Assembly: GCA_902762355.1 (NCBI GenBank)
Contig: CACWNR010000015.1
Span: forward strand, 1-45,221
Reading direction: 5' to 3'
Length of the DNA stretch: 45,221 bases
Source of the DNA: an uncultured Bacteroidales bacterium
GTDB lineage: Bacteria; Bacteroidota; Bacteroidia; Bacteroidales; Paludibacteraceae
Each line of letters begins with the position of its first letter. Position 1 is the first letter of the stretch. The position numbers were made by a program, and so were the translations under genes. Shown in pieces: positions 3,686-37,234 of this stretch. Under the pieces are notes generated by a model. The model saw only the letters and a program-made list of their open reading frames with translations. It was not told the DNA's origin and ran no database searches.

Positions 3686-6145
3686 TTATTGAACGCGCGC
3701 GCCTGTGATCGTATATACTTTATTATCGCGAACTATCAGCACTTGACCGTTACGGACCACTTTATAAGCCGATCCGGAGGTATCCTCCCAAATGATATCA
3801 TCGATATCCTCGGAGTAGTCGTACGAAGCCGGGATAACCGGCGGTGTGATCTTACTTCCGGTGAACACCTTGATCTCACCCGGCTGGAGAGTATAGGTAG
3901 CGGCTGCATTCGTGCCTCCTGCCAGATAGTCATACCACGTGCCGGAAGGCAGCGATACATTTTGTGTCGTTGTGGCGGATATATTTCCGCAAACGAACAC
4001 ATCACTACCCCATTGGATGGTCCGCAGGTTCGTCGCTCCGACGGATGAGTTCGTCGGATTACCTTCGAACACTTCCTTCTTCAAACGCGTGCGGAGTTGG
4101 AGTATCTGCGCTACTTTCTGGTATGCCTGCATACGCGCGCCACCTTTCATCCAACCTTCCGGACGTTTCTTCGGGTACATCTTTACTTCTTCGTTGATAT
4201 ATTCCGGTACGTTGTCTGCGCCGTAAGCCTGATAGCCGTCTTTGCCCCAAACGCCATCCGCTGTCATGAATTTCGAGTTGTCGAAGCCCAATTCTGCGAA
4301 GTGATAGAACATCGTCGGTCCATCAAGCAGGCAAGTCAAAGCTAACACCATTGGTACGCGGTTCAGGCGCACGTCTTCGTCGGTAGCAACACTACCACTC
4401 CCCCACTTACGTGCCTTAAAGAAGCAACGCTCCTCGTCATGGCTCTCGCAGTATGAAACGTACTTATCTCTATTAGCGTTTACCAACGAAGAGTTGGAGG
4501 AGTATCCCATTGCTATCTGTTGGTATGCCTCGCCGGTGTTCTCCCAGCACATCATACCGGCATCGGTCAGTTCTTTCTGTTGCGCACGGTCCAGATCTCC
4601 GGTTGAAGTCTTACCCCAGTGCTCCAGAATCATATATGCGTCCGGAGACACAGCCTTAACACCGTTATTATAATAGTCTTTCAAATTGTCCACCGCATTG
4701 TAAGTCGGACCGCAGATACCATGGCTCAGATCGAGACGGAAACCATCCACTTTATACTCGCGCAACCAGTATTGTAGCGCGCGGGTGAACATCTCATGAG
4801 CGGGTTCGAAATCGTGGTTCCAATCTTCAAAGACGTTATCGCCGTGCGGCGGATTAACGTTAAACCACGGATTCTGCGCCAGCGGATAGAGCTTGTTCAT
4901 CGGGTTAAGACCCGTAGCGTGGTTAAATACCATATCGATAATCACCGCAATACCGCGTTTGTGGCACTCGTCGATGAAGGTCTTCAGTTGTTCCGATGAC
5001 CCGCATGCTTTATGCGAAGCGAAATAATGCGTCGGCGCATATCCCCAACCGTCCGGGTACTCAAACTCGCACATCGGCATCAACTCGACTGCATTTACAC
5101 CTAAGTTCTCGATATAATCGAGGCGACCGGTCAGCGCCGTCAGCGTACGCTCCGCAGTATGGTCATACGGCCACACCTCATAGATAACGAGGTTATCCTT
5201 ATTCGGGCGCTGGAAACTGAGTGTCGCTTGAGACCATTGGAAAGCGGGCTTGCCCGGTTGGATAACCGTCACGTAACCGCCATCTGCACCTCGCAACGGA
5301 TAACCGATAAGGGTAGGATCTGCTTTGCGGGCCAGTTGGTCATTTTGGCTAATCACTTTCTCCGAATACAAATCAGAGATCTGCACATGCTCGCCGTCTG
5401 CGCGCTCAATAGCATATTGGAAGCGATACTCCTGCCCAGCCGTCAAACCCGTCAACTTAAGCCAAAAATAATTACCATCTTTCTTCATCTGATAGGCGTT
5501 ATCCAACCGCCAATTGGTCATGTCGCCGAGGACGAACACATGACTTGCCGCTGCCGTTTTGTTAGCCGCATAAGTACAGAGTGTCACTACCGTCGGGTCA
5601 TTCGGGTCATAATAGATACCGTTGCTGATGCCGCTCGGGCGAGTCTCATTCACTACTGCCGCCGGGGTAAAGTCCGCCCATATATCAGTAGGAATATTCT
5701 CCTCATCTAAGAAAAGGATGATATTATTGCCATTAACGTCCTTACCCTCCTTCGAAGACGAACCATTACCGTTATGGAACACCATAGCAATAGCGATAAT
5801 TTCCTCGGTCGTCGGGCAACCAAAGAAAGAATAGATACTCGGAATGGTTAACTCCCAGTTGGAACCCACTTTGGTCCATTGGGGTTCTTTCTTGGTGCCC
5901 CAATCGTTCGCTCCGCTTTGGATATATTTCCAATCGCCGTTGTCTTTGGAATCCGCGGTGATCAAGCCCATGTGTGAGTAGCACTCAGTTGCATTAACCA
6001 TAGCTTTTCCTTTACTCAGACTCGGGTCATATGTAAACTTGATCTGACCGTCATAGCCCTTCTCAATAATAGCGGGGTCGGTTGTTACCTGCGCGCTGGC
6101 ACAGGCAGCCACAAGGACGAATATACTGAGAAAAATCTTGCGCAT
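3686..6145 (-). CDS. Secreted GH13 alpha-amylase family enzyme with C-terminal tag
   Basis: An exported alpha-glucan hydrolase of 819 residues. It opens with a signal peptide (MRKIFLSIFVLVAACASA); VAAC also fits a lipobox, so it may be a lipoprotein. Two beta-rich modules follow, one unassigned (about 20-165) and one resembling CBM48 (about 175-270). The GH13 barrel starts near 320. Its catalytic residues are the nucleophile Asp472 (GFRLDLSHG), acid/base Glu508 (MILEHWG) and Asp570 (CESHDEER); the first conserved region is DMVFNH near 404. The protein ends with the shared tag (VRNGQVLIVRDNKVYTITG). It is the last starch gene in the operon, 20 bases after 6166-7059. Amylase, pullulanase or related specificity cannot be fixed from the sequence. 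Confidence 0.9.
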   Translation of the reverse strand: MRKIFLSIFVLVAACASAQVTTDPAIIEKGYDGQIKFTYDPSLSKGKAMVNATECYSHMGLITADSKDNGDWKYIQSGANDWGTKKEPQWTKVGSNWELTIPSIYSFFGCPTTEEIIAIAMVFHNGNGSSSKEGKDVNGNNIILFLDEENIPTDIWADFTPAAVVNETRPSGISNGIYYDPNDPTVVTLCTYAANKTAAASHVFVLGDMTNWRLDNAYQMKKDGNYFWLKLTGLTAGQEYRFQYAIERADGEHVQISDLYSEKVISQNDQLARKADPTLIGYPLRGADGGYVTVIQPGKPAFQWSQATLSFQRPNKDNLVIYEVWPYDHTAERTLTALTGRLDYIENLGVNAVELMPMCEFEYPDGWGYAPTHYFASHKACGSSEQLKTFIDECHKRGIAVIIDMVFNHATGLNPMNKLYPLAQNPWFNVNPPHGDNVFEDWNHDFEPAHEMFTRALQYWLREYKVDGFRLDLSHGICGPTYNAVDNLKDYYNNGVKAVSPDAYMILEHWGKTSTGDLDRAQQKELTDAGMMCWENTGEAYQQIAMGYSSNSSLVNANRDKYVSYCESHDEERCFFKARKWGSGSVATDEDVRLNRVPMVLALTCLLDGPTMFYHFAELGFDNSKFMTADGVWGKDGYQAYGADNVPEYINEEVKMYPKKRPEGWMKGGARMQAYQKVAQILQLRTRLKKEVFEGNPTNSSVGATNLRTIQWGSDVFVCGNISATTTQNVSLPSGTWYDYLAGGTNAAATYTLQPGEIKVFTGSKITPPVIPASYDYSEDIDDIIWEDTSGSAYKVVRNGQVLIVRDNKVYTITGARVQ

Positions 6146-6165
6146 AATTGTGCGTATTTAAGGAT

Positions 6166-7059
6166 TTATAATGCTTTACCGGTTGCGTCATACATCTTGT
6201 CGCCGCGGATGATACGCAGCTGACCGTCGATGATCTGCTTGTGTGCTTTCTCGGTTACAACAGTATTCTCAATAGCTTGATTCTCGCTTCCCCAATCAAT
6301 CGTATATGCATCATAGGTAGCTTGATCTACCTTCTCTACCTCGATAGAGCCCTTGAAGGTGCACTTACGCATAATAAGATAGATGGTTTCACCTGCCGGT
6401 AATTGCCATACGTTGCTATTTTCGAAACCATTTGCCCAATACAAAGTAACACTGGTAGCATTCTCTCCAGCCCAACCTTTGGTCTTATATTGGTTGCCTT
6501 CCTCGTCAATAATTACTACGTACGAGATATTTTGTTTATCCGGATGGGAAGCAAGTACACCTGACCAACGGCCGCGAGCATCAAACATGTACTCCGGCAA
6601 TTGTTCTTGAATGTTCCAATCACCGCCAATCGAGCCCATCAACGCAAAGTCATGATCCTCTCCTGATTCTTCGAGACCTTCTTCACTGGGGGTCTCTCCT
6701 CCACCATTATAAACAGACCATGATCCTGCATTGTCCCATCCGTTGATAACACAAAGGTTTTTATCAGACTCAATAGTCATGTCCTGCGTCTGATTCCATT
6801 TGTTGAGCCAATCATTGTCAGATACGCTACCATTCATACGGCAGAAAATAACCGTCGGGTACTTGTCGTCAACTGTAGCTTGATAATATCCTTCCGATGC
6901 AGAAGTCATGTCATACCACGCGTCGCCATTACCGAAAGCATAGATAGCAAAACGGGCACCATCCTTCTTCCAATCATCATTAGGTTGCAGATACAATGTC
7001 TTGGCGTTCATTGCCAAACCGCAAACAACTGCGGCAAATAAAGTAAAAATCTTTTTCAT
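6166..7059 (-). CDS. Secreted starch-binding protein without catalytic domain
   Basis: A 297-residue exported protein. After the signal peptide (MKKIFTLFAAVVCGLAMNA), residues about 20-120 form a module closely similar to the N-terminus of the amylase at 7078-8895, with shared phrases such as ARFAIYAFG, YYQATVDDKYP, VIFCRMNGS and KWNQTQDM. I read it as a CBM26-like starch-binding module. A second beta-rich region (about 130-255) is not recognised. No GH13 motif is present. It ends in the common C-terminal tag (IDGQLRIIRGDKMYDATG). By position and module it probably holds starch at the cell surface for its enzyme neighbours. That role is inferred; the binding-module family is moderately sure. 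Confidence 0.75.
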   Translation of the reverse strand: MKKIFTLFAAVVCGLAMNAKTLYLQPNDDWKKDGARFAIYAFGNGDAWYDMTSASEGYYQATVDDKYPTVIFCRMNGSVSDNDWLNKWNQTQDMTIESDKNLCVINGWDNAGSWSVYNGGGETPSEEGLEESGEDHDFALMGSIGGDWNIQEQLPEYMFDARGRWSGVLASHPDKQNISYVVIIDEEGNQYKTKGWAGENATSVTLYWANGFENSNVWQLPAGETIYLIMRKCTFKGSIEVEKVDQATYDAYTIDWGSENQAIENTVVTEKAHKQIIDGQLRIIRGDKMYDATGKAL

Positions 7060-7077
7060 AATATTAAAATTTAAAAA

Positions 7078-8895
7078 TTAGTAAATTTTTCTTCCTTGTG
7101 CATCGAACACATGCTCGCCACAACGAATATAAAGTTGTCCGTTCTCAATATACTTCTCGCCTTTCTGTTCGGATTGCACGTTCTCAATGCCCTGAGGGCC
7201 TGTGCCGGTATAGTACATTGCATAGTCCGTACCCTTGACTGCCTGCGTATAACCGACGGGAGCCGCATCATTAGCCGCTGTACCGAGCATCAGTTTGACG
7301 CTACCGTACTTACCCTGCACCGTCGCGCGGTAGTATCCGCTACCGGACTCCTCCTGCACAGAACTCTCCGAATGAATACCTGCCATCCGGCGGGCATTGA
7401 TCATCGCTTTGATCTCGCTCTTGTACTTCACCCAATGCGGATAGAACACACACGGCACACCAGGCATGGAGAGCAGATACGCGTTACAACGCATCATCAG
7501 ACTCTTGTCATTGATACTCGATCCGTCACGCTTATTCGCCACGTCATCATTATCGCTACGGTTGAACGTATCATGGTTATCGATAAACGTTACGGCATAT
7601 TTGCTATAACCTTTTCCACGCAGACCTCCGTTCTTACATTTATCGTAACTCTTATAGAAGATACCATCGCGGTACACGCTGTATTTGGCAGCGAAGTCAA
7701 ACGCCAAATTATTCTTGCCCGCCTCGTCAATACGCGTCTTCAGTTCATTCGCATCACCTTTCCAATACTCCATGACGGAGAAATAGGGTTTGGCATTCGT
7801 GACATAATCATTGATATGGCTTACATGATAACCGCCCGCTACATCAAAGCGGAAGCCATCATAGTTCATCGTGTACTTAAGGAACTTCAGATAGGCGCGG
7901 CACATTTTCTGTACCGAATCATTCTTATGGTCAAAATCACGCGCACCGACGAAATTGGCATCCGTACCATTCTGACCATCGTCATAATTGGGACCTAACT
8001 TACTTGCATATTTACCACCTTCTGCGGTGCTGGCTTCATCATCCTTGGTAATCCATTTGCTGTTCGGTTTAAAATAACCATATGTACCAAAGTCCTGATC
8101 AAAGAAATCGATCCAATTACTCTTGTTTCCCGCATGGTTAATCACCACATCTGCCAACACACGCGTACCGCCGTCATGGAGCGAACTAATCAAAGAGCGC
8201 AAGTCTTCTTCACGTCCCATACTATTGCGCTGATAGTAGTATTTGGTAGGAAGATATCCCATACTGCTCGTCTTTGAGTTACACGAAGGCGCCAACCATA
8301 CCAGTTGAAAATACTGCGAGATCTCCGATGCTTGAGACAATAATACAGTCCACTTAGTCGTACCATACGTATTGTCAACATCCGAATTCCAGTAGAAAGC
8401 CTGTAGCATCACATCTGTACACTGACTCGGTACGGCAGTAGCATAGTCGCCTGGAGTCACCGGATCCGGCTCCGGTTCGGGGTCCTCCTGACCGTAGACA
8501 GACCATGTGCCATTATTATCCCACACACCATCTGTGATAAGACATAGGTTCTTATCGGATTCAACAGGCATGTCCTGCGTCTGATTCCACTTATTATTCC
8601 AGTTGTTTTCAGACGTACTACCGTTCATACGGCAGAAAATCACCTGCGGATATTTGTCATCCACCGTAGCCTGATAATAACCGGCATCACCCGATACAAC
8701 ACTCATGCTGTACCATGCTTCACCGCTACCAAACGCATAAATAGCGAAACGGGCATTATCAGTCTTCCAATCACTGCTTGGTTTTAAATACAAGGTCTTG
8801 GCGCTCGCATTAGAGGCGGCGGCCAAGAACATCGTACATAACGCCGTTATGGACAATAACGAGGCGACCGTTGATGATAATTTTGTATACTTCAT
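7078..8895 (-). CDS. Secreted GH13 alpha-amylase with N-terminal starch-binding module
   Basis: A 605-residue exported alpha-amylase. The signal peptide covers about residues 1-32, with cleavage near ASA/KTL. A CBM26-like module (about 33-135) and a Pro/Glu/Asp linker (DPEPEPDP) lead to the GH13 barrel from about 160. Catalytic residues are Asp351 (GFRFDVAGG), Glu376 (SVMEYW) and Asp442 (FIDNHDTF); DVVINH marks the first conserved region. The wording (LQAFYW, GYLPTKYY, NHDTFNR) resembles the small plant/archaeal-like amylase subfamilies. The start at 8895 lies inside the preceding gene: the first 28 codons overlap its last 28 codons in another frame. A start further in (Met22) would leave almost no signal peptide. 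It ends with the common tag. Confidence 0.9.
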   Translation of the reverse strand: MKYTKLSSTVASLLSITALCTMFLAAASNASAKTLYLKPSSDWKTDNARFAIYAFGSGEAWYSMSVVSGDAGYYQATVDDKYPQVIFCRMNGSTSENNWNNKWNQTQDMPVESDKNLCLITDGVWDNNGTWSVYGQEDPEPEPDPVTPGDYATAVPSQCTDVMLQAFYWNSDVDNTYGTTKWTVLLSQASEISQYFQLVWLAPSCNSKTSSMGYLPTKYYYQRNSMGREEDLRSLISSLHDGGTRVLADVVINHAGNKSNWIDFFDQDFGTYGYFKPNSKWITKDDEASTAEGGKYASKLGPNYDDGQNGTDANFVGARDFDHKNDSVQKMCRAYLKFLKYTMNYDGFRFDVAGGYHVSHINDYVTNAKPYFSVMEYWKGDANELKTRIDEAGKNNLAFDFAAKYSVYRDGIFYKSYDKCKNGGLRGKGYSKYAVTFIDNHDTFNRSDNDDVANKRDGSSINDKSLMMRCNAYLLSMPGVPCVFYPHWVKYKSEIKAMINARRMAGIHSESSVQEESGSGYYRATVQGKYGSVKLMLGTAANDAAPVGYTQAVKGTDYAMYYTGTGPQGIENVQSEQKGEKYIENGQLYIRCGEHVFDAQGRKIY

Positions 8896-11800
8896 GGTTC
8901 TTAATCGAATTATCTACTATTTCTTCTAATCCTTCGTCGATCACGCCGTCGCAGTTAGCATCTACAACAGCCTTACCGCAGTTCGGATTCCACAGATAAC
9001 AGGTATTCTCCGTTAGATAGATATCCTGCGTCTGCGGTTTCTTGTTGCCTTCCGTGAAGATGACGTAAATCTCTTTCAACTCCGGATTCATGGTGTGCAC
9101 ATACCATTGACCCTCCATTGTGGTCCATTTCATACCGGGCCATTTAGGACTCTTGCCATCTAACGAGTACGGAGTATCTTTGTACTTACCGTCCACTTTA
9201 ACGCGCGTGAACGCATATAAATAGAGGTCTGTCCACTCTTCCGGTTTGATGAACTTAACCGTCAACGGACCCGATTGCGGTGCTTTATAGGTGTATGTAG
9301 CCGTGCGCGTTGCTGTCTGCTGTTTTCCCGACAACGCAAACGCTTTCACCGTCGTTGTCTGTGTCACCTTAAAGGTGATCGGGCTCAAACCGTTCTGCGA
9401 TGCAGTCGTCGGCTCACTACCATCCGTCGTGTAGTAAATCATTGCTCCCTCTTTACCAATGGCATTGATCGTTACATTAACGCCTTCTACCTGGTCGTTG
9501 AAATAACCGCTCTCCGGGCCTACAGCAATGTCAAACGCGGGATGCAACTCCGTTTCGCAGTCCACCAGAACCTCCTGGTTAGATGTCGTATCCTTACCCG
9601 CCATCCAGCCGTAGCAAACGTCATAGTCGGTAACCAAATCATTCGAACGTACGTTGATACCGCCACAGTCGTCGCCCGAGTTGATACAGAAGTTAACCGA
9701 GTCCATCGAAGCGTCGAACTCATACGCGTACCATCCTTCTACATCTTGATAGATGCGTTGACCCGGGTAAGCACCCATGATATTCTCCGATGCATCTTCA
9801 CCCTGCTCATCTTTGTATGGTCTCCATGCGTATATATACACTTTATTCCAACTCTCCGGCTTGTTGAAGCGAACGATAATACCGCGTTGCAATGGCTCAC
9901 GATAGGTGTACGTATACGTCTGCACTTTCGATTTTGCAGTACCGCAAACGGCCATGATCTTCAGCGTCGTTGTCTGCTTGAAGTTCAGCGGTTCTGTATA
10001 TGTTTGCTTGGTCGAACTGGTTGCCGGATCCGTACCATCGGTAGTGTAGTAGATGGTCGGAGTCGCGCAACTGCCACCTACAGCCTCTGCTGTCACGTCA
10101 ATACCCGCCTGCAGATCCTCAAAGTATGCGCTCGGCGTCACAATCAGACCCGGCGCAGCGTCACCGGTATTCTTCACCCACATCTCGTAACTTTCGTTGA
10201 TCTGATTGCCATGATCATTAAAGGTACTGTACAGGCTGGCCACCTTGGTGTAGCCGGCGAAGTTACCTCCGGTCTTGGTGCCCAAGCATAAGATCAGATA
10301 ACCGTTCTTACCCACAATAGTAGCTTGGTAACCCGTAGCACGCGAGCCGTCGCTATCCCAGAACTCGTCCTTCACTTCACTTTCACTGTGCACACCCGCC
10401 AAGTGACGCGCATTGATCATATCCTTGATCTCGTCTTTGTACTTCACCCAGTGCGGATAGAACACACACGGTACACCCGGCATCGCGAGGATGAACGCGT
10501 TAGCGCCCAACAGACGAGCCTTGATCTCCGGCTTCATCGAGTTGCCGCGACCGCAGAACTCGAGGTCGTTATCCTCACGCAGGAACATATCGTGGTTATC
10601 CACCCAAGTTACGGAATGTTTCTTCCAGTAGTCACTGCCCGTGTCGTCTTTACCGATCAGACCGCGACGACCTACGTAGTTCCATCCCTGCATTGCATTG
10701 ATACCATCGAACTTCAACGCGAAATCCAACGCCATCATATTCATCTGTGCGGCACGGATAGAGTTTTTCAGCGTCTCTACATTTCCGTCATAATACTCCT
10801 CAAAAGCAATATACGGCTCCGAAGCCTGGTTGTAGTTGCTCATGTGCCAGTTGTTATATCCGTCACCCTTGTCATAACGCCAACCGTCATACTTCATCAC
10901 GTTCTTCATCCACTTCAGATATGCCTTAAACATCTCCTGAACCTCCGGATTGTCATGCGCCCAGTCACGAGCAGCATCCCAGTTGGCACCATCGTCTGCA
11001 CGTGAGTTTTTCGAGTAACCATAACAATCTCCGGCCAAGGTATCTACATTGTTCTTCGGATCATTCACCTCATCGTTGCTGGTGATAAAACTCGGCCCCG
11101 GTTCAAACAATCCATACTCATCGAAGTCCTCTACCGCCATATCGCACCAACCCGTCATAGCCTCAGCGTGGTTGATCACAATATCAGCAACCACTTTCGT
11201 ACCACTATTATGGAAGGTAGCAATCAGTTTCTCCAACTCTGCACGGGTACCCCATGCTGAGTTCTGGTTACAGTATTGTTTCGGGTGATAACCTACACCA
11301 CTGGCAAATCCACTGGGCGGCAACCATACCAAATCAAAATACGCACCGATCTCACCCGCTTGTTTTTGCAAGGTTTTCCATTTCGTATCGCCGTAAGTCT
11401 GCGTACCGGCATGGGTCGAGTCCACCTCATACGAGTCATAGAAGAAAGCCTGCAGCAACACGTCCGGACACTCGCTCGGAACACCCGTACCGCTCACAAT
11501 TTCCTCCGTTTCACCAACGATAGTAACACACAGATGACCATCCACGACGCTCACCGTTATACTACCCGTGCTCACCAACCGAATCGACACATTACCGTCA
11601 CTATCCGCACTATATCCCTGCGTACTACATCCCGCACTAACAGCATCAGCACCAAGGATTACACCTTCCCAGTTTCCCGTCGTCACCTTGAACTTATATG
11701 TTCCGGCCGGCAGATCCGAGAAAGTAATGGTACGATCCGGCATCAGCAAGTGCTCTCCCCAGCTCACACCAGGCAGACCCTCACCCGCAATATAATACTC

Positions 11801-12199: not shown

Positions 12200-12270
12200 T
12201 GTATTAGTTATTTTACTTATAATTAGCATGTTAAGTCTCTGCGTAACAGACATACGCCCATTTTGCTCCG

Positions 12271-12301
12271 CAAAATTACAAAAAAAATCCGATATACGCA
12301 A
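12271..12301 (-). promoter_or_regulatory. Promoter of the starch/kinase/xer operon
   Basis: Minus strand: TTG (12299-12301), 20 bases, TAATTTTG (12271-12278), a full match to the Bacteroidota consensus. It lies 71 bases upstream of the 12199 start and supports that start over the upstream ATG at 12334. No operator-like repeat is evident beside it. Confidence 0.8.
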
Positions 12302-12337
12302 GTATTTCGGACAAAAAATGTTATTTTTGTGCAAATT

Positions 12338-12985: not shown

Positions 12986-13004
12986 TTTCTGCACAAATTC
13001 GGCA

Positions 13005-13035: not shown

Positions 13036-13052
13036 AAAAAATGCAAAAAAAT

Positions 13053-15614: not shown

Positions 15615-17227
15615 AAAAGATTTTCTTACTCACCTTGGTTGCTCTGATGAGCACGATGGTATGGGCGGCTCCCCGCAGTATGCAACAAGCACGCAGTATG
15701 GCACCGGGTTTGCGTCATGTCCGTACGGCCTTGACGACGAACGGTCAGCCTGCGTTCTACATCTTCAACCGCGACAACGACGAAGGTTTCGTGATCATCT
15801 CTGCCGACGACCGTGCCCACACGGTGCTGGCTTATTCGGACAAGGGTCATTGGGATGAGAACGACCTGCCGGAGAACCTGCGCGTATGGTTAGAGGGTTA
15901 TGCAGAACAGATAGGCAGTCAGGACGCTTTCTATGCGCCGAGCATGGAGACAGCCTCGTATACGCCGGTCGGACAGTTGTGTCAGACCACCTGGGGGCAA
16001 AATGATCCGTACAACCGCTTATGCCCGATGTGGCAGAGCAGTCGCACTGTGACCGGTTGTGTAGCAACGGCTGCGTCGCAGATCATGAAGAAGCATAACT
16101 ACCCCGAGCACGGTATCGGTTCGCACAGTTATAAATGGGCGAATGCAAACGGCGACAGCATTGTGCTGAGTGCCGACTTCGAGAACACGACCTACGATTG
16201 GTCGAATATGCTCAACAGTTATACGAGCAGCGCCACGGATGTGCAGAAGGATGCCGTAGCGACCTTGATCTATCACTGCGGCGTAGCCAACGAAATGAGA
16301 TACGGCAAGAGTGCCTCCACCGGTGACTCGCCGGATATGCTCGGACAGATGATTGACTATTTCGGCTATGACAAGGGTATCCGCACGTACCGCAAAGGGT
16401 ATGCGCCGGACTCCGTCATTATGGAGAACATATACAACAACCTGCGTATGGGGCAACCGGTTTATATCAGCGCCAAGACGATCGATAGCATCGGTCACGC
16501 TTTCGTTTGCGACGGTATCGATGCAGACGGACTGCTGCATATCAACTGGGGCTGGAACGGCAAGGCGGACGGTTACTATCAACTTTCTGCTTTCGCTCCG
16601 AAAGAGCAAGGCACAGGCGGTTCGTCCAGCGGCAAAGCCTTCACCGAGCGCATCAAGGTCTTCACTCATATCCGTCCGAATGCCGACGGCGACTATTACT
16701 ACTCGTTCTGCTGCGAGAACATCCAATCCCTCCAGCCGGCTTATCACCGCGATTCGCTGGTACGTTTCCGTGTGGACTCATTCTATAACGATAGTTACAA
16801 CGCATGGCAAGGTCACCTGCGTCTCCTGATCTATCAGGACGGCGAGAAATATGGCAGTCGTTCTACCTCCACCGACATGAAACCGCTGCAACCTGGCAAG
16901 CGCCGCAATATAATCACCTACAGCGCTGATTTCTCCAACCGCACGAAGTACCCGGACGGAGAGTATGAATTAGTGATCGCTGCCCGTGCCACGGACCAGG
17001 GCTCCAGCTCTGTCATTCCTGTTTGGTGCAAAGGTTATGGCGAATGGCGATGCAAGATGACTTTTGAAGGGGACTCGATCTATATCGATGCGCCTCAACG
17101 CCCCGAAGGCATCCTCAATACCTCGGAAGAGACCATAGAGAAAGCGCAAAAGATCCTTCGTGACGGCGTACTGTACATCCGTCGCAACGGCGTGACGTAC
17201 AACGTACAAGGCATCAAAGTAAAGTAA
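15611..17227 (+). CDS. Secreted C10 family cysteine protease (streptopain-like)
   Basis: An exported papain-fold protease of the SpeB/PrtT/interpain family, 538 residues. The start at 15611 overlaps the exchanger stop (ATGA) and gives a clear signal peptide (MKKIFLLTLVALMSTMVWA); upstream in-frame codons belong to the exchanger. A Spi-type propeptide spans about 20-115 (FNRDNDEGFVIISADDR). The mature domain has the catalytic Cys150 (VTGCVATAASQIM), His296 (IGHAFVCDG) and the HINWGWNG stretch. A beta-rich region follows, and the protein ends with the shared tag (LRDGVLYIRRNGVTYNVQG). Known relatives cleave host or dietary proteins outside the cell. A second C10 gene follows 19 bases later. Confidence 0.93.
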   Translation: MKKIFLLTLVALMSTMVWAAPRSMQQARSMAPGLRHVRTALTTNGQPAFYIFNRDNDEGFVIISADDRAHTVLAYSDKGHWDENDLPENLRVWLEGYAEQIGSQDAFYAPSMETASYTPVGQLCQTTWGQNDPYNRLCPMWQSSRTVTGCVATAASQIMKKHNYPEHGIGSHSYKWANANGDSIVLSADFENTTYDWSNMLNSYTSSATDVQKDAVATLIYHCGVANEMRYGKSASTGDSPDMLGQMIDYFGYDKGIRTYRKGYAPDSVIMENIYNNLRMGQPVYISAKTIDSIGHAFVCDGIDADGLLHINWGWNGKADGYYQLSAFAPKEQGTGGSSSGKAFTERIKVFTHIRPNADGDYYYSFCCENIQSLQPAYHRDSLVRFRVDSFYNDSYNAWQGHLRLLIYQDGEKYGSRSTSTDMKPLQPGKRRNIITYSADFSNRTKYPDGEYELVIAARATDQGSSSVIPVWCKGYGEWRCKMTFEGDSIYIDAPQRPEGILNTSEETIEKAQKILRDGVLYIRRNGVTYNVQGIKVK

Positions 17228-17246: not shown

Positions 17247-19787
17247 ATGAAAAAACTTCTCACTCTTTTTACAGGCCTGTTGCTCTGTTTGCACATGACA
17301 GCAGCGCAACGTAGTTTGGAGGAAGCCCAGCAGGCTGCTTCTATGTATTTCACCTCGCATTCGAATGTGCTCCGTGCGCCGGCGCGCACCGCTACAATGA
17401 AGCATAGTTGGACGGAGTTGACCGACCAAGGCACACCGGCTTTCTATGTGTTCAACCGCGGCACAGATGACGGTTTCGTCATTGTGTCTGCCGAGAGCCG
17501 CACCCGCACCATCATCGGTTATTCGGACAAAGGGCACTTGGATCAAAACAACATGCCGGTTAACATGCGCGCATGGATGGAGGGCTATAAGCCGTTTATC
17601 CAACATGTGGCTGCATTACCGGAGATGCCTACTCCCGTTTTAAAAGCGCCAGTTCGTCGTACCGTAAAAAACTACACACCGGTCAGTCCGATCTGTGCAA
17701 CTACCTGGGGACAAGGATGGCCGTATAACATCAACTGCCCGCTAGACAGTGACGGCGAGAGATGCGTAACGGGTTGCGTGGCAACAGCCGCAGCACAGAT
17801 CATGAAGGCACATAACTACCCTACGCAAGGCATCGGTTCATCCTCCTATGAGTGGACTCGTTCGGATTATTCGACTGAGATCCTGTCGTCTGATTACTCC
17901 AGCCACACCTACGACTGGGCGAACATGAAAGACGATTATCTATACTCTACCTCCACCGAGACCGAGCAAAACGCTGTTGCCTTGCTGATGAGCGATTGCG
18001 GTATCGCCTGCGAAATGGGTTATACCAGCCATGAGAGCGGGGCAATATTCAGTTACATGCTGCGTGCCATGATTGAGCATTTCGGTTACGACCCGTCGAT
18101 CCGCTTGATCTCAATGAATTACATGACCGAAGAAGCGTTTGTGGACGCTATATACGTTGATCTGCAAGCCGGTCGTCCGGTATATTTCAGCGGTCGTACC
18201 ATCAACGATGAGGGTCATGCTTTCGTAGGTGACGGTCTCGATGCGGACGGTCTGGTTCATATTAACTGGGGTTGGAACGGCAGCAGTGACGGTTATTTCC
18301 GTGTCTCACTGCTGGATCCCGAGGATCAAGGAACAGGCGGTTCGTCCGGTAACTACGCTTATACCGAAAACGTAGCGGCTTATACAAATATCAAGCCGAA
18401 TGAGAACGGTACCCCCGGTTACTGCTACACGTCGGAGAATATCATGGTAGGCGAGACCCGCATCGCGAAGGACGAGTATTTCTTCTTCCAGATTGACACC
18501 TTATACAACCAGAGTCTCTATGACTTGGAGACCGGTTATGTAGGCTTCTTAGTCTATCAGAACGGTGTACCGGTGGACATGGTGATTGATACCAATTGCC
18601 CGGCCAATCTATACTTCTATTACTACTATTTCCACCGCTATGCCTATCCATCCTTCTCTTCGTTGTCCGCAGGAGAATACGAGATCGCTCCCATCGTTAC
18701 GCTCAACGAAGCAGGGACTCTATATACACCGGTTATGCAGAAATGGGTAGGTGAGTTCCGTTGCCCCATGACCGTAACGAATGACTCCGTCTTCCTGACA
18801 GTGCCTGTAATCGTAGAACCGGAGAAACCGGAAATCACCTACGCCGATCCGGCTCAGTACACATACGATCATGTCATGGGCGATTACTATCCGGAGCGTT
18901 CCAGTGAGAATACATTCTGGTGGCAAATACAAATTGAGACGGCAGGATTCTGGGATGATGAATCAGAACAGAGCGAGGAAGGAATGTTGATGTTCTACCT
19001 CAATTCGTCGGCCGATAACTCATTCCTAGGTTCGTTTGTGGCAGATCAACAGATAACCTATAACTGCGCCAACGCATACCTGTTAAACGGCACGGTGTCT
19101 GCATATAGTTATGTGGCGCTGGCCAATCCGGAACTGACGGTTATTTATAACCCCACCACCAACAAGTACCGGTTCATGTACTACGTGACCGTAGGCAATA
19201 AGATCTGCACCGATACGCTTGAGTTCGATGCAACGCAAGTAGTAGGCGAATTAGCGACTACCGATCCGGAGACCGGAGACAGGTGGTATGATGTCATTAC
19301 GATGGCTACCAATGTCTATACCACCGTTACGCCGACTTGGGCTTCCGCTGAGTTAGACGAGCACGAAAGCAGATGGGCATCTCCGATTCCGTATGTAGTA
19401 GGAGGTACCTTGAGTCAATTGGCGAATACACCGCAGCAGATCCAGCAATTTAAGAACTGCCGCTTGTATATCTCCGATGGTGTGACGGAACTCTATTCGC
19501 ACAACACCAAATGGCTCAACAACACCGACTTCACAACCGGTAACGAGATCGAGCAAGGTGGTACGGCCGTGCTTGTAGGTACGTTAAAAAACTACGAAAA
19601 CAATAATTCGATCACAAAGGAGTTGGTATCCGGCTATTTCCTGCAGTACGAGTCACCCAGCGGTATGGGTGTTGAGCAGACGGCAGACGAGAAGACGGCT
19701 GCACAGAAAATCGTTCGCGACGGACAAATCCTCATCCTGCGAAACGGTAAGACCTACACCATGCAGGGCGCTATAGTGAACGATTAA
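17247..19787 (+). CDS. Secreted C10 family cysteine protease, longer paralogue
   Basis: An 846-residue paralogue of the preceding protease. Signal peptide MKKLLTLFTGLLLCLHMTAA, Spi-type propeptide (FNRGTDDGFVIVSAESR, about 70-86), catalytic Cys177 (VTGCVATAAAQIM) and His324 (EGHAFVGDG), then HINWGWNG. The C-terminal ~450 residues are beta-rich repeats without a recognised family, longer than in the first copy. It ends with the common tag (VRDGQILILRNGKTYTMQG). It is probably cotranscribed with the first copy; its 3' end overlaps the convergent glycosyltransferase gene by 17 bases. Two tandem copies with different tails suggest different substrates or surface positions (inference). Confidence 0.93.
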   Translation: MKKLLTLFTGLLLCLHMTAAQRSLEEAQQAASMYFTSHSNVLRAPARTATMKHSWTELTDQGTPAFYVFNRGTDDGFVIVSAESRTRTIIGYSDKGHLDQNNMPVNMRAWMEGYKPFIQHVAALPEMPTPVLKAPVRRTVKNYTPVSPICATTWGQGWPYNINCPLDSDGERCVTGCVATAAAQIMKAHNYPTQGIGSSSYEWTRSDYSTEILSSDYSSHTYDWANMKDDYLYSTSTETEQNAVALLMSDCGIACEMGYTSHESGAIFSYMLRAMIEHFGYDPSIRLISMNYMTEEAFVDAIYVDLQAGRPVYFSGRTINDEGHAFVGDGLDADGLVHINWGWNGSSDGYFRVSLLDPEDQGTGGSSGNYAYTENVAAYTNIKPNENGTPGYCYTSENIMVGETRIAKDEYFFFQIDTLYNQSLYDLETGYVGFLVYQNGVPVDMVIDTNCPANLYFYYYYFHRYAYPSFSSLSAGEYEIAPIVTLNEAGTLYTPVMQKWVGEFRCPMTVTNDSVFLTVPVIVEPEKPEITYADPAQYTYDHVMGDYYPERSSENTFWWQIQIETAGFWDDESEQSEEGMLMFYLNSSADNSFLGSFVADQQITYNCANAYLLNGTVSAYSYVALANPELTVIYNPTTNKYRFMYYVTVGNKICTDTLEFDATQVVGELATTDPETGDRWYDVITMATNVYTTVTPTWASAELDEHESRWASPIPYVVGGTLSQLANTPQQIQQFKNCRLYISDGVTELYSHNTKWLNNTDFTTGNEIEQGGTAVLVGTLKNYENNNSITKELVSGYFLQYESPSGMGVEQTADEKTAAQKIVRDGQILILRNGKTYTMQGAIVND

Positions 19788-27484: not shown

Positions 27485-27491
27485 ATTTTTC

Positions 27492-31002: not shown

Positions 31003-31006
31003 ATTT

Positions 31007-31195: not shown

Positions 31196-31203
31196 CGCTT
31201 TTT
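31176..31203 (+). terminator. Rho-independent terminator of cca-parE transcript
   Basis: AAAGCGCCATT (31176-31186) pairs with AATGACGCTTT (31191-31201) with one mismatch and a 4-base loop, followed by T residues. The stem includes the stop codon of the small membrane protein. Confidence 0.8.
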
Positions 31204-31235
31204 CTCTTTCACTCTTTCATTCCTTCATTCCTTAC
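31204..31235. repeat. Octamer repeat tract between convergent genes
   Basis: Four octamers on the plus strand: CTCTTTCA twice, then TTCCTTCA and TTCCTTAC. The tract reaches into the stop codon of the 2000-residue protein at 31232. Confidence 0.75.
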
Positions 31236-34200
31236 CTAACCTCCTGTCCTGTCAAGGTATATACTTTCTCCCCGCGGAGGATGTAGATAACACCGTTAAT
31301 CAGGAGTTTTCCATCGGACGATTGACTGCTAATGATTTCTTCAAGGCCTTGCATCGTTCTGCGATCCACCACATTCGAGCGACCGGAGAGGTTCGCTTGT
31401 GCGGCATGGTTGGAAGCAGGAGCAGCCGCAGCGCCGGAGAGCTGATACTCAATCGCGTAGTACGGCAGGTTATCATCCGGTGTTTGGTCAGTGTATGAGG
31501 TGTTGGACGAAGCGACTACTGCAATCTGCGACAGGTTCGTCGGTGACGCACCACGGAGGATACGATAAGCACTCACGCTTGCGCCGGCATACTCATTCCA
31601 GATGAGGTTGTATGTGCCGTTCTGTACACCGCGGTTGATGGTCAGATGAACCGTCTTATGGATCGCACTGGTCGGCGACTCATTACCGTCAGCCGTTACA
31701 CCGGTGAGGCGATAACGCTCTGCCTTCTGCGAAGCATCCGATGCATTGTCGGTATAGGTACCGGCGGAAGCGTTAGCAGAGCCGATGAGTTGGAAGTCAT
31801 TGAGGCTGTTACCCTCCTTATAGACATTGACGGAAGCGAAAGCCTCAGCGCCCGTCCACGAGAGGACGTTATGTCCGTTTGCATCGGTGGTGACAAGTGT
31901 CAGCGTCGGGATGTTGGTAGCCGCCATAACGGTGACATTGCTCGTAAAATAGGTCTCGCAACCATTCGCATTCGTGACAAGCAGATAGAGCACTACCTGA
32001 TGTCCGACTAAGGTCTTTTCGGAATAGTTGCTCTTATAGTGCGCCGTTACATTCAGTCCGCTTGCGCTCAGGCGATAGTCATAGGAGACAAAGACGCTGG
32101 TTGAAGGCAATACAACTCCGTATTGGTCTATGCGACAAAGTTCACCGCCATCAATAGATACGTACCATGCATATTCGATACCGTCGGGCACAGAAGCCGA
32201 AGCTGGCGTCTCTTCGTAGAGCACGGTCGGCAGCGATACCTCCAAGGCCTTCGGATCGTCAATGGTGATCGTCTGCGAGTATGTCTGACCATTAACCGTG
32301 AGCGTGATAGTCTTCACACCGCCGGTTCTCCAGGTCACATTATACGGTCCGAAACCATAGCCTTCCGCCATACCGCCGTCGAAAGTCCATGCCGGCGTAC
32401 CCGAGGTCTCTGCCCCACGATAGGAAACGAGCACCTCTTCATCCGCGCAAGCGAAGGACGGCACCTCAATCGGGTTGCGTACCACATTCGCGATGATGGT
32501 CTGCGAGAAGACAGACAGTTTATTCTGGCGGTCGAGCGCCTGAATGGCTATCTCGTAGTTACCGTTAGAAAGATCGGAGGTCGGAATCAGATAACTCGTG
32601 CCTTCCGCATAGTCATAATCCGGAATGAAGGCTGTGTTATCATTGCCGCCGTTCTGCGGGCTGATGAGATAGGTGGTCGCTCCTTGCTGTTTCACACTCA
32701 GGTTATAACGCATATTTGCCGCCGGCGTATGGTCATCAACCGCCGCCGTCCATGTGATAAGCAAACCTTCGTTGGTCATCGAAGCCTGTACATTGGTCGG
32801 TGCAGCCGGACGTACATCGGCTTGCGTTACAATCGGGTAAAGCGTACTGCTGATCCACAGATAGTGGTCATTCGGCGTGAGGTAACAGTCTCTGAGGTAA
32901 CAGCCGTTTGCTTTCGGGAGCAGGAATCCTTCAGCAATCACATTGTCCGCCTCTTTATACCAAGCATATATACCCGAAGCATCTTCACCTTCAGCCGGAT
33001 TGCTAACACATGCCACGGAATCGAGATAACCGTTATTATCAAGATCCGTCAGCACGTATTGGAAGTCATTGAACGGCGCATACTCTTGCAGTCTTTGCGC
33101 AAAGAAACTCTCCAACTCCGGATCATTCACGCGCACGGACAAACTATTATTCACTGCATCGTACGGCAAGTACCCATAGCTGTAATAGGTACTTGTATTG
33201 TGATGGTAATACTCACGGAACAACATATCCATATGGCCGTCTTTGTTCCAATCGTACCAGAAAATATCGTTGAACAAATAGTATGAATTAATAAGATAAC
33301 CTTCGGTTATGATATTGGTATTCCAAAGACCCGCTGCTTTCGCAAAGAGGTTAGCGTTATTCACTCCTTCTTGTACGGTTATGGCATAATAGGATCCGCT
33401 GTAATAATCGGAAGGCAGCACGCCGTCCATGCGACCGTCGTTGTTAAAGTCACCCATCGGCGTGGAGATGGTAAGTTTTTGGTCTTCCGTGAGTTGGATC
33501 GGTTCGCCTAAACCGGCAGGCAGCACAACGATCGTTGCGCTGGCACTCAGCGTACCGCTGTTCGGCGTTGTCACGGTATGAGTGATAGTCTTCGTACCGC
33601 CGGAAGTGAAGGACAGAAGGAGCTTAGCAGCCGACTCCGTGCTTACTTCGTACGAACCGTCTTGTACTGTCCATTGGTGCGTATAACCTTCCGGAAGTGT
33701 CGTATAGGTCAGAACGGCTTTCTCGTTGATCGCGATAGTCGTTTTGTCGAGTGTGAACTCTACCGGTACGATATCATGAACGGCTGTTGCCTCTTGCGAC
33801 CATGCAGAACCGAAATGCTGCGCATCAATCGCTTGTACAGCCACGTAGATAGTAGCGGGACTATACGAACTCAAATCGATGGTATAAGTATGCTCCTTGC
33901 CCATGTTGCCATCGAGGAAGTTACGTCTCGTACCATCTGCATTAGCGTGCGCAGCAAGGATATCGTTTCCACCCGGAGTAGTACCGATCCGCAGCGCGTA
34001 AGTGAGGTCATTAACAGCAGTCTTATCATCTGCGCCATTGCCCCATGTGATGGTCAACAGACCATTGCTATAACTGAGTGTCGGTTGCGCAGGTGCGCTC
34101 GGACGAACATTAGCAACAGCACCTTCGATGGTATATAACTTGGTGGTCTGACTTCCATTATTGGACACCCAGATCTCCATCTTACCGTCGCCGTCGAGGT

Positions 34201-37200
34201 CTTCGGCACTAACGGGATAAGACGTGAAGGGTTCTTTGGAACTATCCCAATAGGTCTGACGCGTGATAATATCGGTAGCCAGAACCTGCGGCGTAGTGTC
34301 GAAGTGCAAACCGCTTTGACCTTTCAACCAAACAAGGTTGTATTTATCGTTGCTTGTCGGATTGTAGGCCAGCAGGTCGTAATAACCATCACCATCCAAA
34401 TCTTGAAGCGCCATGAACGCAAGCTTATTTGCACCGTAGTTCTGATCTTGTTGCTGCGAGAAGACTCCTTGTCCGTTATTGGTAAAGAAGCAGGTGTACG
34501 CATAGCCGGTTGTATTATTCTCTGCTGTGAAAGTAGCTAATATATCCACGTCGCCATCTTTATCGAAGTCATAGCAGTAGACGATATCATCGGAAGCGGC
34601 ATTCTGATAGAGCAAAGTCCGGACGAAGTTCTTCGTTGTTTTATCGTAGATAACGGTGTACAATCGCTCTCCCGGGAAGACGAAGTCCATCACACCGTCG
34701 TTGTTGAGGTCTGCTGGCACAACCGCTCCGTTGGTCGTTGTCCAAACCCACTTACCATTATCCATATTAGTATAGATGATACCGGATTTCTCGTCAATCA
34801 GATCCATCAGATCGTCTTTGTTGAGGTCAATGACCTTAGTCGGAGCACCTATCAGTGTTCCCAAACCAGGTGCCTTCTTCACTTCCGGAGCATTGCGTCT
34901 CGGAGTACGAGCCAGACAAACGGCACCTAAAGTAACCGGATAGGTATAACGTGACACTTCGCCCAGCGAGTATGCTTGCGGGTTGTTGTACTGATCTAAC
35001 TCCTCCGGCGTCATCTGCGCTACGAACTCATCCCATGTGAACACTTGCATCCGTTGCTCTTGGAACGAACCGTCCGCTAACTGATAAGCGATAGCGCCGT
35101 ATTCGGCACTAATTCTATTCGTCAGGGGGATCGATTGGTCAAGTACCAAGTAATCCTTCCGACCGTCGCTGTTGATATCCATATTGGTTACAGCCAAGGC
35201 GTTCTTTTGAGGGAACACGTAGCTGCCGGCGTTACTCATCATTAGTTCTTTGTCGAACGTACTGATCTCCGGTTTGTTGTCCGCATTCAGGTGTTCGAAA
35301 TAAGCTATCGAACTACCCAGGCTCTCGGAAGCTGTATATGTGAAAGTGGCGAGTTCTTCTTGAATACGGAATTGCTCCGTTACATCTTTGGTCAAAATAT
35401 ACGAAGTCGTCCAATCGGACACCATTTGTTGCATCTCATAGTTATAATAGGGTCCTCCATTCGAGTGCTCTACCCTTACCATCTGCTTCAGACCGTTACC
35501 GCTGAAGTCATAGAGTACATCTGCTCGTTGCAGCGGCACATAGATGATATCGTCATCCGGGTTCACGTGACCGATATACGGCGTATAACCGTCCGTGAGA
35601 CCTGTTTCTTCATGACTATCATAACCCGAAACCCATGTGCCTTCTACATACGTTCCTAATACGATAACCGTATCCCCTTTGCTCAGTTGTGCAATGCTGT
35701 AGAACGGCTCGCGATCAACGCCTAACATATGGTATGCTTCCACGTTACAGTCATCCCACTCGCCGGTATCCGTCACGCGGAACGACAATGTACCGCCGGT
35801 CTCCACTGTACTGCCCAGCAACGCATGAACCAAACCCTTAACGGCATAATAGGTCTCACCTTGAGGTGCCTTTATGAACTCATCGGTTTCCTTGAAGGAG
35901 CACCATTGACTTACCGTCATGATATCGGGCGAGTTGGGATTGAAGGTATAGGTCGGTTTGATAGTCACACTTTGTGTGAGATTCGTCAACGCATGATCCC
36001 AACCAGCAAAGGTATGCCCGGGCAACTGCGGAGTATCCGGGGCTACTGCGTTACCGCCAATAAGAACGAATTGCGGATCATCGATCTGTTTACCGGCGAA
36101 ATCAACAAAGACTACTTTCACGTACCCTTCCGGCACGCAGTTATTATCCAACTCCCACAAAGACTGAACCTTTATGTCGTTATGCACGTTCGTGAACTCC
36201 TTGTCCCAGCCGGTGAAGACCATACAACTGTGTTCGCCTGACATGCCTGTCGGCGCAACAGCGTTGCCTCCTATAGCCACCGTCTGCGGTGCACCTACCG
36301 GTTGGCCGTCCCAACCCAAGAACGTCACCGAGCAGGTGTTAGCCGTCGTGTCGGAGATAATGGTAAGTTCCATCAGTCTGAGTCCGAAATAGTGACCGCC
36401 GAGGAAAGTCAACTCTGCCGCACTTCCGGTCCAAATAACCGTTTTGGAATCCACAGCTTCCATCTCACCCGAGGAACAGGTAGAACGATCCATCCACCTC
36501 GTTGCCGGATTACTGGTACTGACATCATTGAAGGTCAGTACCACCTTATGCATCTTATACGGCGCGGTAATAACCAACGTACTGTTCTCCGATAATTCGA
36601 GGTTATTGGAATTCATCCTGATTTTATCGCGCGAATCTTCCGTCTCTTTCCATGCGAACACAGATTTGTCGTCGATGTTAAAGCGCACGGAATCTACATA
36701 TCCGTTCGGCCACGGCTCAAACGGGTTTTCGTCATTCCATGCCGTCACCCAATTGGCGATGTTGAGCGTCGTGGTATCGTTATAGGTGCTCGTCCAATCG
36801 ATAGCCGGCTCTTTATAGTTGACAGCAAACGACACAAATCCTACGGTACCCGTGAAGGTTACCTCAAGACTCTCCGCCTCGCCTGTCCACGTCACTTTCA
36901 CATCGTTCACACTCTTCGAGCCGGTGCTCCAGGTGGCATTGTTGAGGTTACCTGCCATAAGGCTGTTATACATCGTGAACTCCACCTGCGTCAGCAACAT
37001 CCCAGTCGGGGCACTCACGCTCATCGTGTTACCAGACACGGCCTGCAACGCACTATACTGCGTGTTATAACTCGGAGCCTTCGCGCCCGTGCCTTGCGCC
37101 AGAACGATGGTGACACCGTTTTTAGTAGCGCTCGTGCTCGCGTTATTCAACTCGCTGGCAGTGAAGCTCACTGTCTCTGCCTGCATCCCCACCGCCATCA

Positions 37201-37234
37201 GCAGCGTCAATGCGATAAGTAAGTACTTTTTCAT
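31232..37234 (-). CDS. Very large secreted FG-GAP/Fn3/PKD repeat protein
   Basis: An exported 2000-residue protein; start at 37234 with signal peptide MKKYLLIALTLLMAVGMQA. Two beta domains (about 20-295) lead to two InlB B-repeat-like units (about 300-430; TFLGWDGQPVG, VVFVDFAGKQI). From about 685 come Ca2+-binding FG-GAP/VCBS blades (DINSDGRKDYL, DLNNDGVMDFV, DFDKDGDVDIL, DLDGDGYYDLL), then Fn3 and PKD-like domains, a second FG-GAP group (DFNNDGRMDGV, DWNKDGHMDML, DLDNNGYLDSV), and further Fn3/PKD domains. It ends in the common tag (INGVIYILRGEKVYTLTG). No catalytic motif was seen. It stands alone behind its own promoter. An adhesin or glycan-binding surface role is likely but unproven. Confidence 0.82.
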   Translation of the reverse strand: MKKYLLIALTLLMAVGMQAETVSFTASELNNASTSATKNGVTIVLAQGTGAKAPSYNTQYSALQAVSGNTMSVSAPTGMLLTQVEFTMYNSLMAGNLNNATWSTGSKSVNDVKVTWTGEAESLEVTFTGTVGFVSFAVNYKEPAIDWTSTYNDTTTLNIANWVTAWNDENPFEPWPNGYVDSVRFNIDDKSVFAWKETEDSRDKIRMNSNNLELSENSTLVITAPYKMHKVVLTFNDVSTSNPATRWMDRSTCSSGEMEAVDSKTVIWTGSAAELTFLGGHYFGLRLMELTIISDTTANTCSVTFLGWDGQPVGAPQTVAIGGNAVAPTGMSGEHSCMVFTGWDKEFTNVHNDIKVQSLWELDNNCVPEGYVKVVFVDFAGKQIDDPQFVLIGGNAVAPDTPQLPGHTFAGWDHALTNLTQSVTIKPTYTFNPNSPDIMTVSQWCSFKETDEFIKAPQGETYYAVKGLVHALLGSTVETGGTLSFRVTDTGEWDDCNVEAYHMLGVDREPFYSIAQLSKGDTVIVLGTYVEGTWVSGYDSHEETGLTDGYTPYIGHVNPDDDIIYVPLQRADVLYDFSGNGLKQMVRVEHSNGGPYYNYEMQQMVSDWTTSYILTKDVTEQFRIQEELATFTYTASESLGSSIAYFEHLNADNKPEISTFDKELMMSNAGSYVFPQKNALAVTNMDINSDGRKDYLVLDQSIPLTNRISAEYGAIAYQLADGSFQEQRMQVFTWDEFVAQMTPEELDQYNNPQAYSLGEVSRYTYPVTLGAVCLARTPRRNAPEVKKAPGLGTLIGAPTKVIDLNKDDLMDLIDEKSGIIYTNMDNGKWVWTTTNGAVVPADLNNDGVMDFVFPGERLYTVIYDKTTKNFVRTLLYQNAASDDIVYCYDFDKDGDVDILATFTAENNTTGYAYTCFFTNNGQGVFSQQQDQNYGANKLAFMALQDLDGDGYYDLLAYNPTSNDKYNLVWLKGQSGLHFDTTPQVLATDIITRQTYWDSSKEPFTSYPVSAEDLDGDGKMEIWVSNNGSQTTKLYTIEGAVANVRPSAPAQPTLSYSNGLLTITWGNGADDKTAVNDLTYALRIGTTPGGNDILAAHANADGTRRNFLDGNMGKEHTYTIDLSSYSPATIYVAVQAIDAQHFGSAWSQEATAVHDIVPVEFTLDKTTIAINEKAVLTYTTLPEGYTHQWTVQDGSYEVSTESAAKLLLSFTSGGTKTITHTVTTPNSGTLSASATIVVLPAGLGEPIQLTEDQKLTISTPMGDFNNDGRMDGVLPSDYYSGSYYAITVQEGVNNANLFAKAAGLWNTNIITEGYLINSYYLFNDIFWYDWNKDGHMDMLFREYYHHNTSTYYSYGYLPYDAVNNSLSVRVNDPELESFFAQRLQEYAPFNDFQYVLTDLDNNGYLDSVACVSNPAEGEDASGIYAWYKEADNVIAEGFLLPKANGCYLRDCYLTPNDHYLWISSTLYPIVTQADVRPAAPTNVQASMTNEGLLITWTAAVDDHTPAANMRYNLSVKQQGATTYLISPQNGGNDNTAFIPDYDYAEGTSYLIPTSDLSNGNYEIAIQALDRQNKLSVFSQTIIANVVRNPIEVPSFACADEEVLVSYRGAETSGTPAWTFDGGMAEGYGFGPYNVTWRTGGVKTITLTVNGQTYSQTITIDDPKALEVSLPTVLYEETPASASVPDGIEYAWYVSIDGGELCRIDQYGVVLPSTSVFVSYDYRLSASGLNVTAHYKSNYSEKTLVGHQVVLYLLVTNANGCETYFTSNVTVMAATNIPTLTLVTTDANGHNVLSWTGAEAFASVNVYKEGNSLNDFQLIGSANASAGTYTDNASDASQKAERYRLTGVTADGNESPTSAIHKTVHLTINRGVQNGTYNLIWNEYAGASVSAYRILRGASPTNLSQIAVVASSNTSYTDQTPDDNLPYYAIEYQLSGAAAAPASNHAAQANLSGRSNVVDRRTMQGLEEIISSQSSDGKLLINGVIYILRGEKVYTLTGQEVR

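Follow-up and report, generated by a model that had tools for sequence, protein, structure and literature searches.

A short C-terminal tail with reversed motif order, probably a type IX secretion signal, in an uncultured bacterium of the Paludibacteraceae

We describe a C-terminal tail of about 38 residues that is shared by seven proteins encoded on a 45,221-nucleotide stretch of DNA (the window), the whole of contig CACWNR010000015.1 in the draft genome of an uncultured Bacteroidales bacterium of the family Paludibacteraceae (GCA_902762355.1; 1.94 Mb, 36 contigs, 76% complete). The tail is probably a new short variant of the type A-like C-terminal domain (CTD) of the type IX secretion system (T9SS), with its motifs in reversed order, and PorV and PorU would act on it. 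The tail is best read as a T9SS signal because it lies at the extreme C-terminus of proteins with signal-peptide-like starts, the genome encodes those core machinery genes that were looked for, the leader is of the PorU type and the tail alternates with ordinary CTDs on C10 peptidases. That it is a short CTD of reversed order is likely, as judged from the sequences and from single-chain structure models. Below, G000 is the host's own genome, C-numbers are contigs (the window is C15) and L-numbers are loci.

The seven tails had been picked out in a sequence-only reading of the window, and each does lie where that reading placed it, as the final residues of a long open reading frame (ORF). A profile built from them and run on the host genome gave 79 matches at E ≤ 1 (for 71 of these, E is no higher than 3.1e-5), and upon translation all 79 ended within 10 residues of a stop codon. 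This recurrence at the C-termini of many host families is far beyond chance. Six matches (L092, L097, L098, L100, L101 and L102) are fragments or broken tails and were set aside; the final ~25 residues of the other 73 align almost gap-free. Their majority consensus is K-h-h-x-[ND]-[GD]-[QVH]-h-x-I-h-[RK]-x-[GDN]-x-x-[YF]-[TND]-x-x-G-x-x-[VLI]-[KR], in which the last glycine is invariant and the K and I are nearly so. Five of the six, comprising tail cores on very short ORFs and one tail without its middle (L097, C2:1835; L098, C14:47728; L101, C27:23329; L102, C6:7336; L100, C2:8690), are probably remnants of decayed cargo genes.

The hosts had been described as exported proteins of unrelated families. 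Within the window they are less unrelated than this suggests, as three are GH13 proteins, two are C10 peptidases and a sixth, of 297 residues, is 46% identical to the neighbouring 605-residue amylase over the aligned part. It is the genome-wide matches, spanning many host families, that make the tail independent of host descent: the 58 of 79 tail ORFs scanned against Pfam (those of up to 1200 residues) match 31 families between them, and among the 25 of these that were listed are BspA-type leucine-rich repeats with 10 members, C10 peptidases with 4, and endonuclease I and GH13 with 3 each. The expectation that the hosts carry signal peptides held for 63 of the 71 tail ORFs of at least 200 residues (the eight shorter ones are excluded from this count), as scored by our own strict, ATG-anchored hydropathy heuristic rather than SignalP; by the same rule, 2 of 22 other, hand-picked window ORFs passed. 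Among the eight failures several have a signal-like stretch but begin at a codon other than ATG or at a later position, and in one the ORF is truncated by the end of its contig.

Canonical short CTDs of the same family follow the order leader, B, D, E. One from the same genus runs ...Y-N-V-L-G-Q-P-V...K-G-V-V-I-Q-N-G-N-K-Y-L-L-R, and the tail consensus of congeners, drawn by eye, is K-V-I-E-N-G-Q-L-Y-I-I-R-N-G-V-K-Y-N-A-Q-G-Q-x-V-K. In hhalign profile alignment the end of the tail fell on canonical motif B (probability 86%, E 5e-6, 16 columns; 83% and E 9e-6 by the tool's own comparison). In the second-ranking alignment the D-E turn of the canonical CTDs was matched by YIxRNGxxY of the tail (probability 16%, E 0.0016, 9 columns). 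This turn comes after motif B in the canonical CTD, and its counterpart in the tail comes before the motif-B-like end. None of 300 column-shuffled canonical profiles reached the best score of 25.0 (maximum 18.4), and two reached the second score. With an earlier 12-row canonical set of mixed types, the comparison gave E 2.3e-4 and a probability of 45%. The end of the tail also aligned to motif B of the eight long CTDs of the host genome; this match is weak (E 0.014-0.016, probability 3%), and the claim on order therefore rests on the canonical short CTDs. The sequence-only reading had noted that the (Y/F)xxxGxxV end recalls the core strand of type A domains. Its suggestion of a possibly shortened T9SS domain needs correcting in one respect: the tail is not simply a type A domain cut short, since its conserved motifs are arranged in a different order.

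Scanning the 73 tails with matrices taken from canonical tails (row L231 is absent from the motif-scan matrix) gave the same picture. The best site for motif B lay exactly 10 residues from the end in 45 of the 73, and its mean score was 22.9 standard deviations above residue-shuffled tails, as against 13.3 for the D-E matrix; D preceded B in 59 tails. For canonical short CTDs, regular expressions placed B before D in 29 of 29, an order that is partly given by construction because the expressions used limited search windows, by which the hhalign result is not affected. AlphaFold2 predicted three strands for the tail (tail E was modelled; pLDDT 84.8, pTM 0.50), QKILR, VLYIRR and VTY, followed by the loop NVQGI and a bridge at K, and for a canonical short CTD it predicted MY, the loop NVLGQ and PV, then GVVIQ and NKYLL. 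The Y-loop-strand element is alike in the two models and has the opposite place in the chain. The profile alignment, the motif scan and the two models agree on a reversed order with motif B at the extreme C-terminus.

In known CTDs the B loop (YxxxGxxV) is followed by strand D and then by strand E with the C-terminus; in the tail the hairpin would come first and the B loop would itself be the C-terminus, so that B loop and C-terminus would be fused in sequence. In a three-stranded meander the order E-D-B should keep each strand's direction as in B-D-E, and therefore the B loop and the start of D would remain at one edge, a deduction from strand order rather than from coordinates. Canonical short CTDs occur in 49 of 120 family genomes, and the only one found in the host's own genome (L258, G000:C3:264140-264220) contains one strand twice (IRYNLLIRYNLLGQPV), which hints at a way for motif order to change, via duplication and loss.

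Ahead of the core stands a leader which by majority at each position reads P-T|G-I-E. It is present in 68 of 72 tails under a permissive rule that itself restricts the last three positions (L086 is dropped by the core rule, which takes the set from 73 to 72), and a stricter rule finds it in 55 of 73. From the predicted cleavage site to the end, the 68 tails have a median of 38 residues (range 34-54). Canonical short CTDs of the same family share this leader (e.g. TAIDN, TAIEN and TGINT; T-x-[ILV] in 13 of 19 by eye). At the level of sequence, the putative cleavage site resembles the PT/GI motif of the short CTDs of Prevotella intermedia.

The T9SS components looked for were PorU, PorV, PorQ and SprA, and the host genome encodes all of them: the PorU sortase (C6:39072-42344) with PorV adjoining it (C6:37820-38881), PorQ (C3:60060-61049) and SprA (C4:61071-68336). 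The co-occurrence with porU, porV and sprA foreseen by the sequence-only reading is thus present in the host. PorU itself carries an ordinary long CTD at its C-terminus (C6:39111-39326, within the PorU/PorV region G000:C6:37820-42344). TIGR04183, commonly used to count T9SS cargo (e.g. PMC5831590), hit 8 places in the genome at E ≤ 0.001, and none of the 79 tail matches overlaps them. Most of the likely T9SS cargo of this genome would go unseen by TIGR04183, because it finds 8 places as against 79 others with the tail or a remnant of it. At E ≤ 1, neither PF18962 nor PF13585 matched the tail of any of the seven window proteins (Pfam lists complete for all seven). TIGR04183 and TIGR04131 gave no tail match in the six window proteins with complete NCBIfam lists, and for the seventh (ORF 3686-6145) the list covered 25 of 41 NCBIfam families. 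By the earlier reading, a match of the tail to an existing CTD model would have spoken against its being new; to this extent none was seen. One sub-threshold match in the test with type A CTD profiles was internal to gene D (residues 88-121) and did not involve the tail.

The profile used to follow the tail through other genomes (A6) has 70 rows, 60 from the host's own genome and 10 from relatives, and because of this make-up more distant forms elsewhere may be missed. In the phylum sample the tail was found in 2 of 296 genomes (the host's own and one at E 9.6e-4), in the order sample in 5 of 198 (the host's own and four with one match each; PorU in 182 of 198), in the family sample in 70 of 200 (PorU in 192), and in the genus in all 35 sampled genomes, 28 of which have at least 36 matches. 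At the sensitivity used, the tail occurs throughout one sampled genus, is patchy in the family and is almost absent elsewhere. Fourteen genomes were reached via named loci, 11 of them selected because they carry the new tail and 3 lacking it; 13 have matches, 12 of these with 42-102. Candidatus Colicola equi has 74. The genome of L112 in the named-locus set has its matches in the same contig places as the congener G362. The single matches L262 (G108) and L263 (G068) lie in two other families on similar hosts, starting SLNWGQVCSG and SLTWSQVCSG, and have 7-8 residues beyond the tail core; cargo may travel between families together with its tag.

Long CTDs are found in all 41 genomes of the genus counted, 2-41 per genome. 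Across ten genomes of the genus their number is inversely correlated with that of tail candidates from a loose first look (-0.89, with a p-value of 0.0006 that is too optimistic because the genomes are related); with the final tail counts, lower bounds in some genomes, the correlation is -0.79. G296 and G306 have 39 and 41 long CTDs and 11 and 9 tails, respectively, and the tail is commoner in the other eight.

The two C10 peptidases of the window allowed the tail to be compared with ordinary CTDs on related enzymes. Scanning the named genomes with them gave 302 relatives, of which the best 80 were kept; 7 of these loci gave no ORF by the motif rule, and the remaining 73, together with 4 from the host's own genome, make 77 rows. 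By local profiles made in this analysis, 23 of them end in the new tail, 7 in a canonical short or medium CTD, 24 in a long CTD and 23 in none of the three. A tree was built from 68 catalytic domains (9 rows were omitted, 8 as open or fragmentary and 1 for want of the catalytic motif). On it the new tail changes 7 times, at least 5 of them over well-supported branches (mean upon shuffling 19.2). L124, with the new tail, groups with L121-L123, which have canonical CTDs (support 100/99), and four proteins with the new tail, including one of the host's own, form the sister group of four with long CTDs (98/90). Because tail and ordinary CTDs alternate on this tree, the tail takes the place that true CTDs have on related enzymes. 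Among the peptidases whose C-termini match none of the three CTD profiles, L138 has as its sister a host-genome protein with the new tail, and L126, L149 and L156 are sisters to proteins with canonical CTDs.

Three types of T9SS CTD, A, B and C, are recognised (PMC10202324). Type A CTDs are gripped by PorV loops and SprA (PMC10994853); the main CTD sheet has the strand order 4-3-6-7, and two motifs matter for function, the strand 3-4 loop (similar to region B) and the C-terminus (similar to region E) (PMC11285876). The tail is like type A (TIGR04183/PF18962) in being C-terminal, modular and attached to many different secreted proteins, in its YxxxGxxV and in occurring in a host with PorV and PorU. 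It differs in length (~38 as against ~70-100 residues), in having no PNP-like start and no profile match, in its predicted three strands instead of a seven-stranded immunoglobulin-like sandwich, and in its reversed motif order. Type A CTDs have a near-invariant lysine near the C-terminus; the last residue of the tail is K or R in 38 of 63 cases and L in 13. With type B (TIGR04131/PF13585) the tail would share the role of a C-terminal T9SS signal, yet type B CTDs are published as larger, probably uncleaved and PorP/SprF-dependent, and no profile match was seen (PF13585 in seven of seven window proteins, TIGR04131 in the six with complete lists). Type C (ChiA type), with a CTD of ~100 residues (PMC10202324), shows that sequence-divergent CTD classes exist; the tail was set beside it by description only.

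The closest published counterparts are the short CTDs of P. intermedia (Ye et al. 2025, PMC11969387), for which 48 were predicted with 43-55 residues (40-51 in the seed set). There, cleavage is preferentially at PT/GI, and beyond the site come motif B with its Y and G, motif D with GxY and a later Ile, and the basic motif E. The domain was predicted to form a three-stranded sheet, its binding to PorV was studied by modelling, and mass spectrometry detected a glycan linked to the C-terminus in six cargo proteins; the species is stated to be the sole one reported with both long and short CTDs. Short T9SS CTDs (~40-55 residues) being thus already published, the shortness of the tail is not new in itself, and the minimal sorting signal proposed by the sequence-only reading is the best-supported interpretation without being novel on that account. 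The tail shares with the P. intermedia CTDs its very small size, its place at the extreme C-terminus of proteins with a signal peptide, the PT/GI leader, its many copies per genome and, as modelled, a single three-stranded sheet with motif B and a D/E-like hairpin. In contrast to the published order leader, B, D, E, the tail has leader, hairpin, B, and its core, which aligns with hardly any gaps, has motif B as its end. In P. intermedia, cleavage and glycan anchoring were established by experiment, whereas the tail is known here from sequence. In the openly accessible literature, as far as its titles, abstract starts and passages show, we found no CTD with re-ordered motifs.

A T9SS signal could also have arisen as a cut-down D-E hairpin of a type A CTD, its terminal YxxxGxxV resembling motif B by chance or convergence. 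The second-best profile alignment does hit the D-E turn, and a reporter is reported to be secreted with no more than the last 22 residues of HBP35, which comprise motifs D and E (PMC10202324, PMC11969387). We nevertheless consider this unlikely, since the best alignment is to motif B and lies above all 300 shuffles, the terminal glycine is invariant in a 70-row alignment, and the tail model has a strand-loop-strand around Y and G as in the canonical model. That the tail is instead a dockerin-like tag for surface attachment or docking, acting after export by another route, sits poorly with its occupying the position of a CTD behind a leader like that of relatives' canonical CTDs, with its alternation with CTDs on C10 peptidases and with its inverse relation to long CTDs in ten genomes of the genus. 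A tag common to many different proteins of one cell, missed by TIGR04183 and PF18962 and lacking a positive association with PorU, could be read in this way, and we regard it as very improbable. Least probable of the readings weighed is that the tail, here too a T9SS signal, relies on a PorP/SprF-like shuttle or on PorQ rather than PorV, in the manner of type B, and stays uncleaved. Type B CTDs do use other shuttles and are probably uncleaved (PMC10202324), and PorQ is encoded in the host genome; however, the tails have no match to PF13585 (seven of seven window proteins) or TIGR04131 (the six with complete lists), and PorV and PorU are favoured both by the resemblance to motif B and by a leader that looks like a cleavage site. 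A porin or BAM beta-signal was rejected, as those hosts that could be recognised are either soluble enzymes or repeat proteins and the final residue of most tails is K or R instead of an aromatic one.

Several observations weigh against a reversed-order short CTD. The motif order is not uniform, as B preceded D in 14 of the 73 tails in the matrix scan; the AlphaFold models are small; the tail, with its median of 38, is slightly shorter than the published 43-55 residues; and its terminal basic residue is not invariant. Furthermore, PorU is not positively associated with the tail in the family and even leans slightly the other way (65 of 70 tail-bearing as against 127 of 130 tail-free genomes). 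This co-occurrence test, made for the order and for the family, has no power and lends the reading no support, PorU being nearly universal, and to that extent the porU part of the earlier expectation falls away.

The seven window tails are listed in Table 1. All of them fit the core K-x3-[ND]-G-x-[LIV]-x-I-x6-[YF]-x3-G-x2-[LVI], and K, G, I and G are invariant in their alignment. The pattern proposed by the sequence-only reading thus stood in its core, and its exact leader, G-(I/L/V)-E-(N/E/Q), is present in four of the seven, the others having DIDD, AIEN and GILN. Two core positions had been drawn too strictly, (R/H), where the tail at 7078 has C, and (G/D/E), where the tail at 3686 has N. 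The 297-residue host of tail B has no Pfam match over cut-off. The signal peptide of gene D, MKRFFLIF, begins at ~12199, inside the ORF. Genes D and C overlap by 86 bases (window 8810-8895, minus strand), and the stretch for tail D, read in the +1 frame, encodes most of the signal peptide of gene C (MKYTKLSSTVASLLSITALCTMFLAAASNASA). A single stretch would therefore encode both a secretion tail and a signal peptide, although an assembly or start-site error is a possible cause of the overlap.

Table 1. The seven tails of the window and the proteins that carry them (positions are those of the window)
Tail	Position	Strand	Leader	Length (residues)	Host protein	Host ORF	Recovered by genome profile
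A	3686..3808	-	DIDD	40	819-residue GH13 protein (PF00128)	3686-6145	yes
B	6166..6276	-	AIEN	36	297-residue protein, predicted to be exported	6166-7059	yes
C	7078..7191	-	GIEN	37	605-residue GH13 amylase	7078-8895	yes
D	8810..8932	-	GLEE	40	GH13 amylase with CBM26	8810-12334	yes
E	17108..17227	+	GILN	39	C10 peptidase with Spi inhibitor domain	15611-17227 (likely)	yes
F	19668..19787	+	GVEQ	39	second C10 peptidase	17247-19787	yes
G	31232..31348	-	GLEE	38	2008-residue FG-GAP repeat protein	31232-37258	yes

Binding of the tail by PorV, export, cleavage and anchoring are what we infer from sequence. In the mechanism we propose, a host protein would cross the inner membrane by its predicted Sec signal peptide, and the PorV shuttle would bind the small three-stranded tail within the SprA translocon, bring it out and pass it to the PorU sortase. 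PorU would cut the flexible leader ahead of G-I-E-N and then either join the protein to a surface polysaccharide or free it. With a naturally re-ordered signal it could be seen what PorV must recognise, namely a loop and a terminus lying together on one edge of a small sheet, and what it need not, namely chain order and a second sheet. A module of ~38 residues opens the question of the minimal T9SS signal to direct testing, and it could also be used as a secretion tag. On balance, we lean towards regarding the tail as a distinct class of T9SS signal, with reversed strand order and with B loop and C-terminus fused in a terminal segment of ~10 residues, to which this lineage may have moved most of its cargo.

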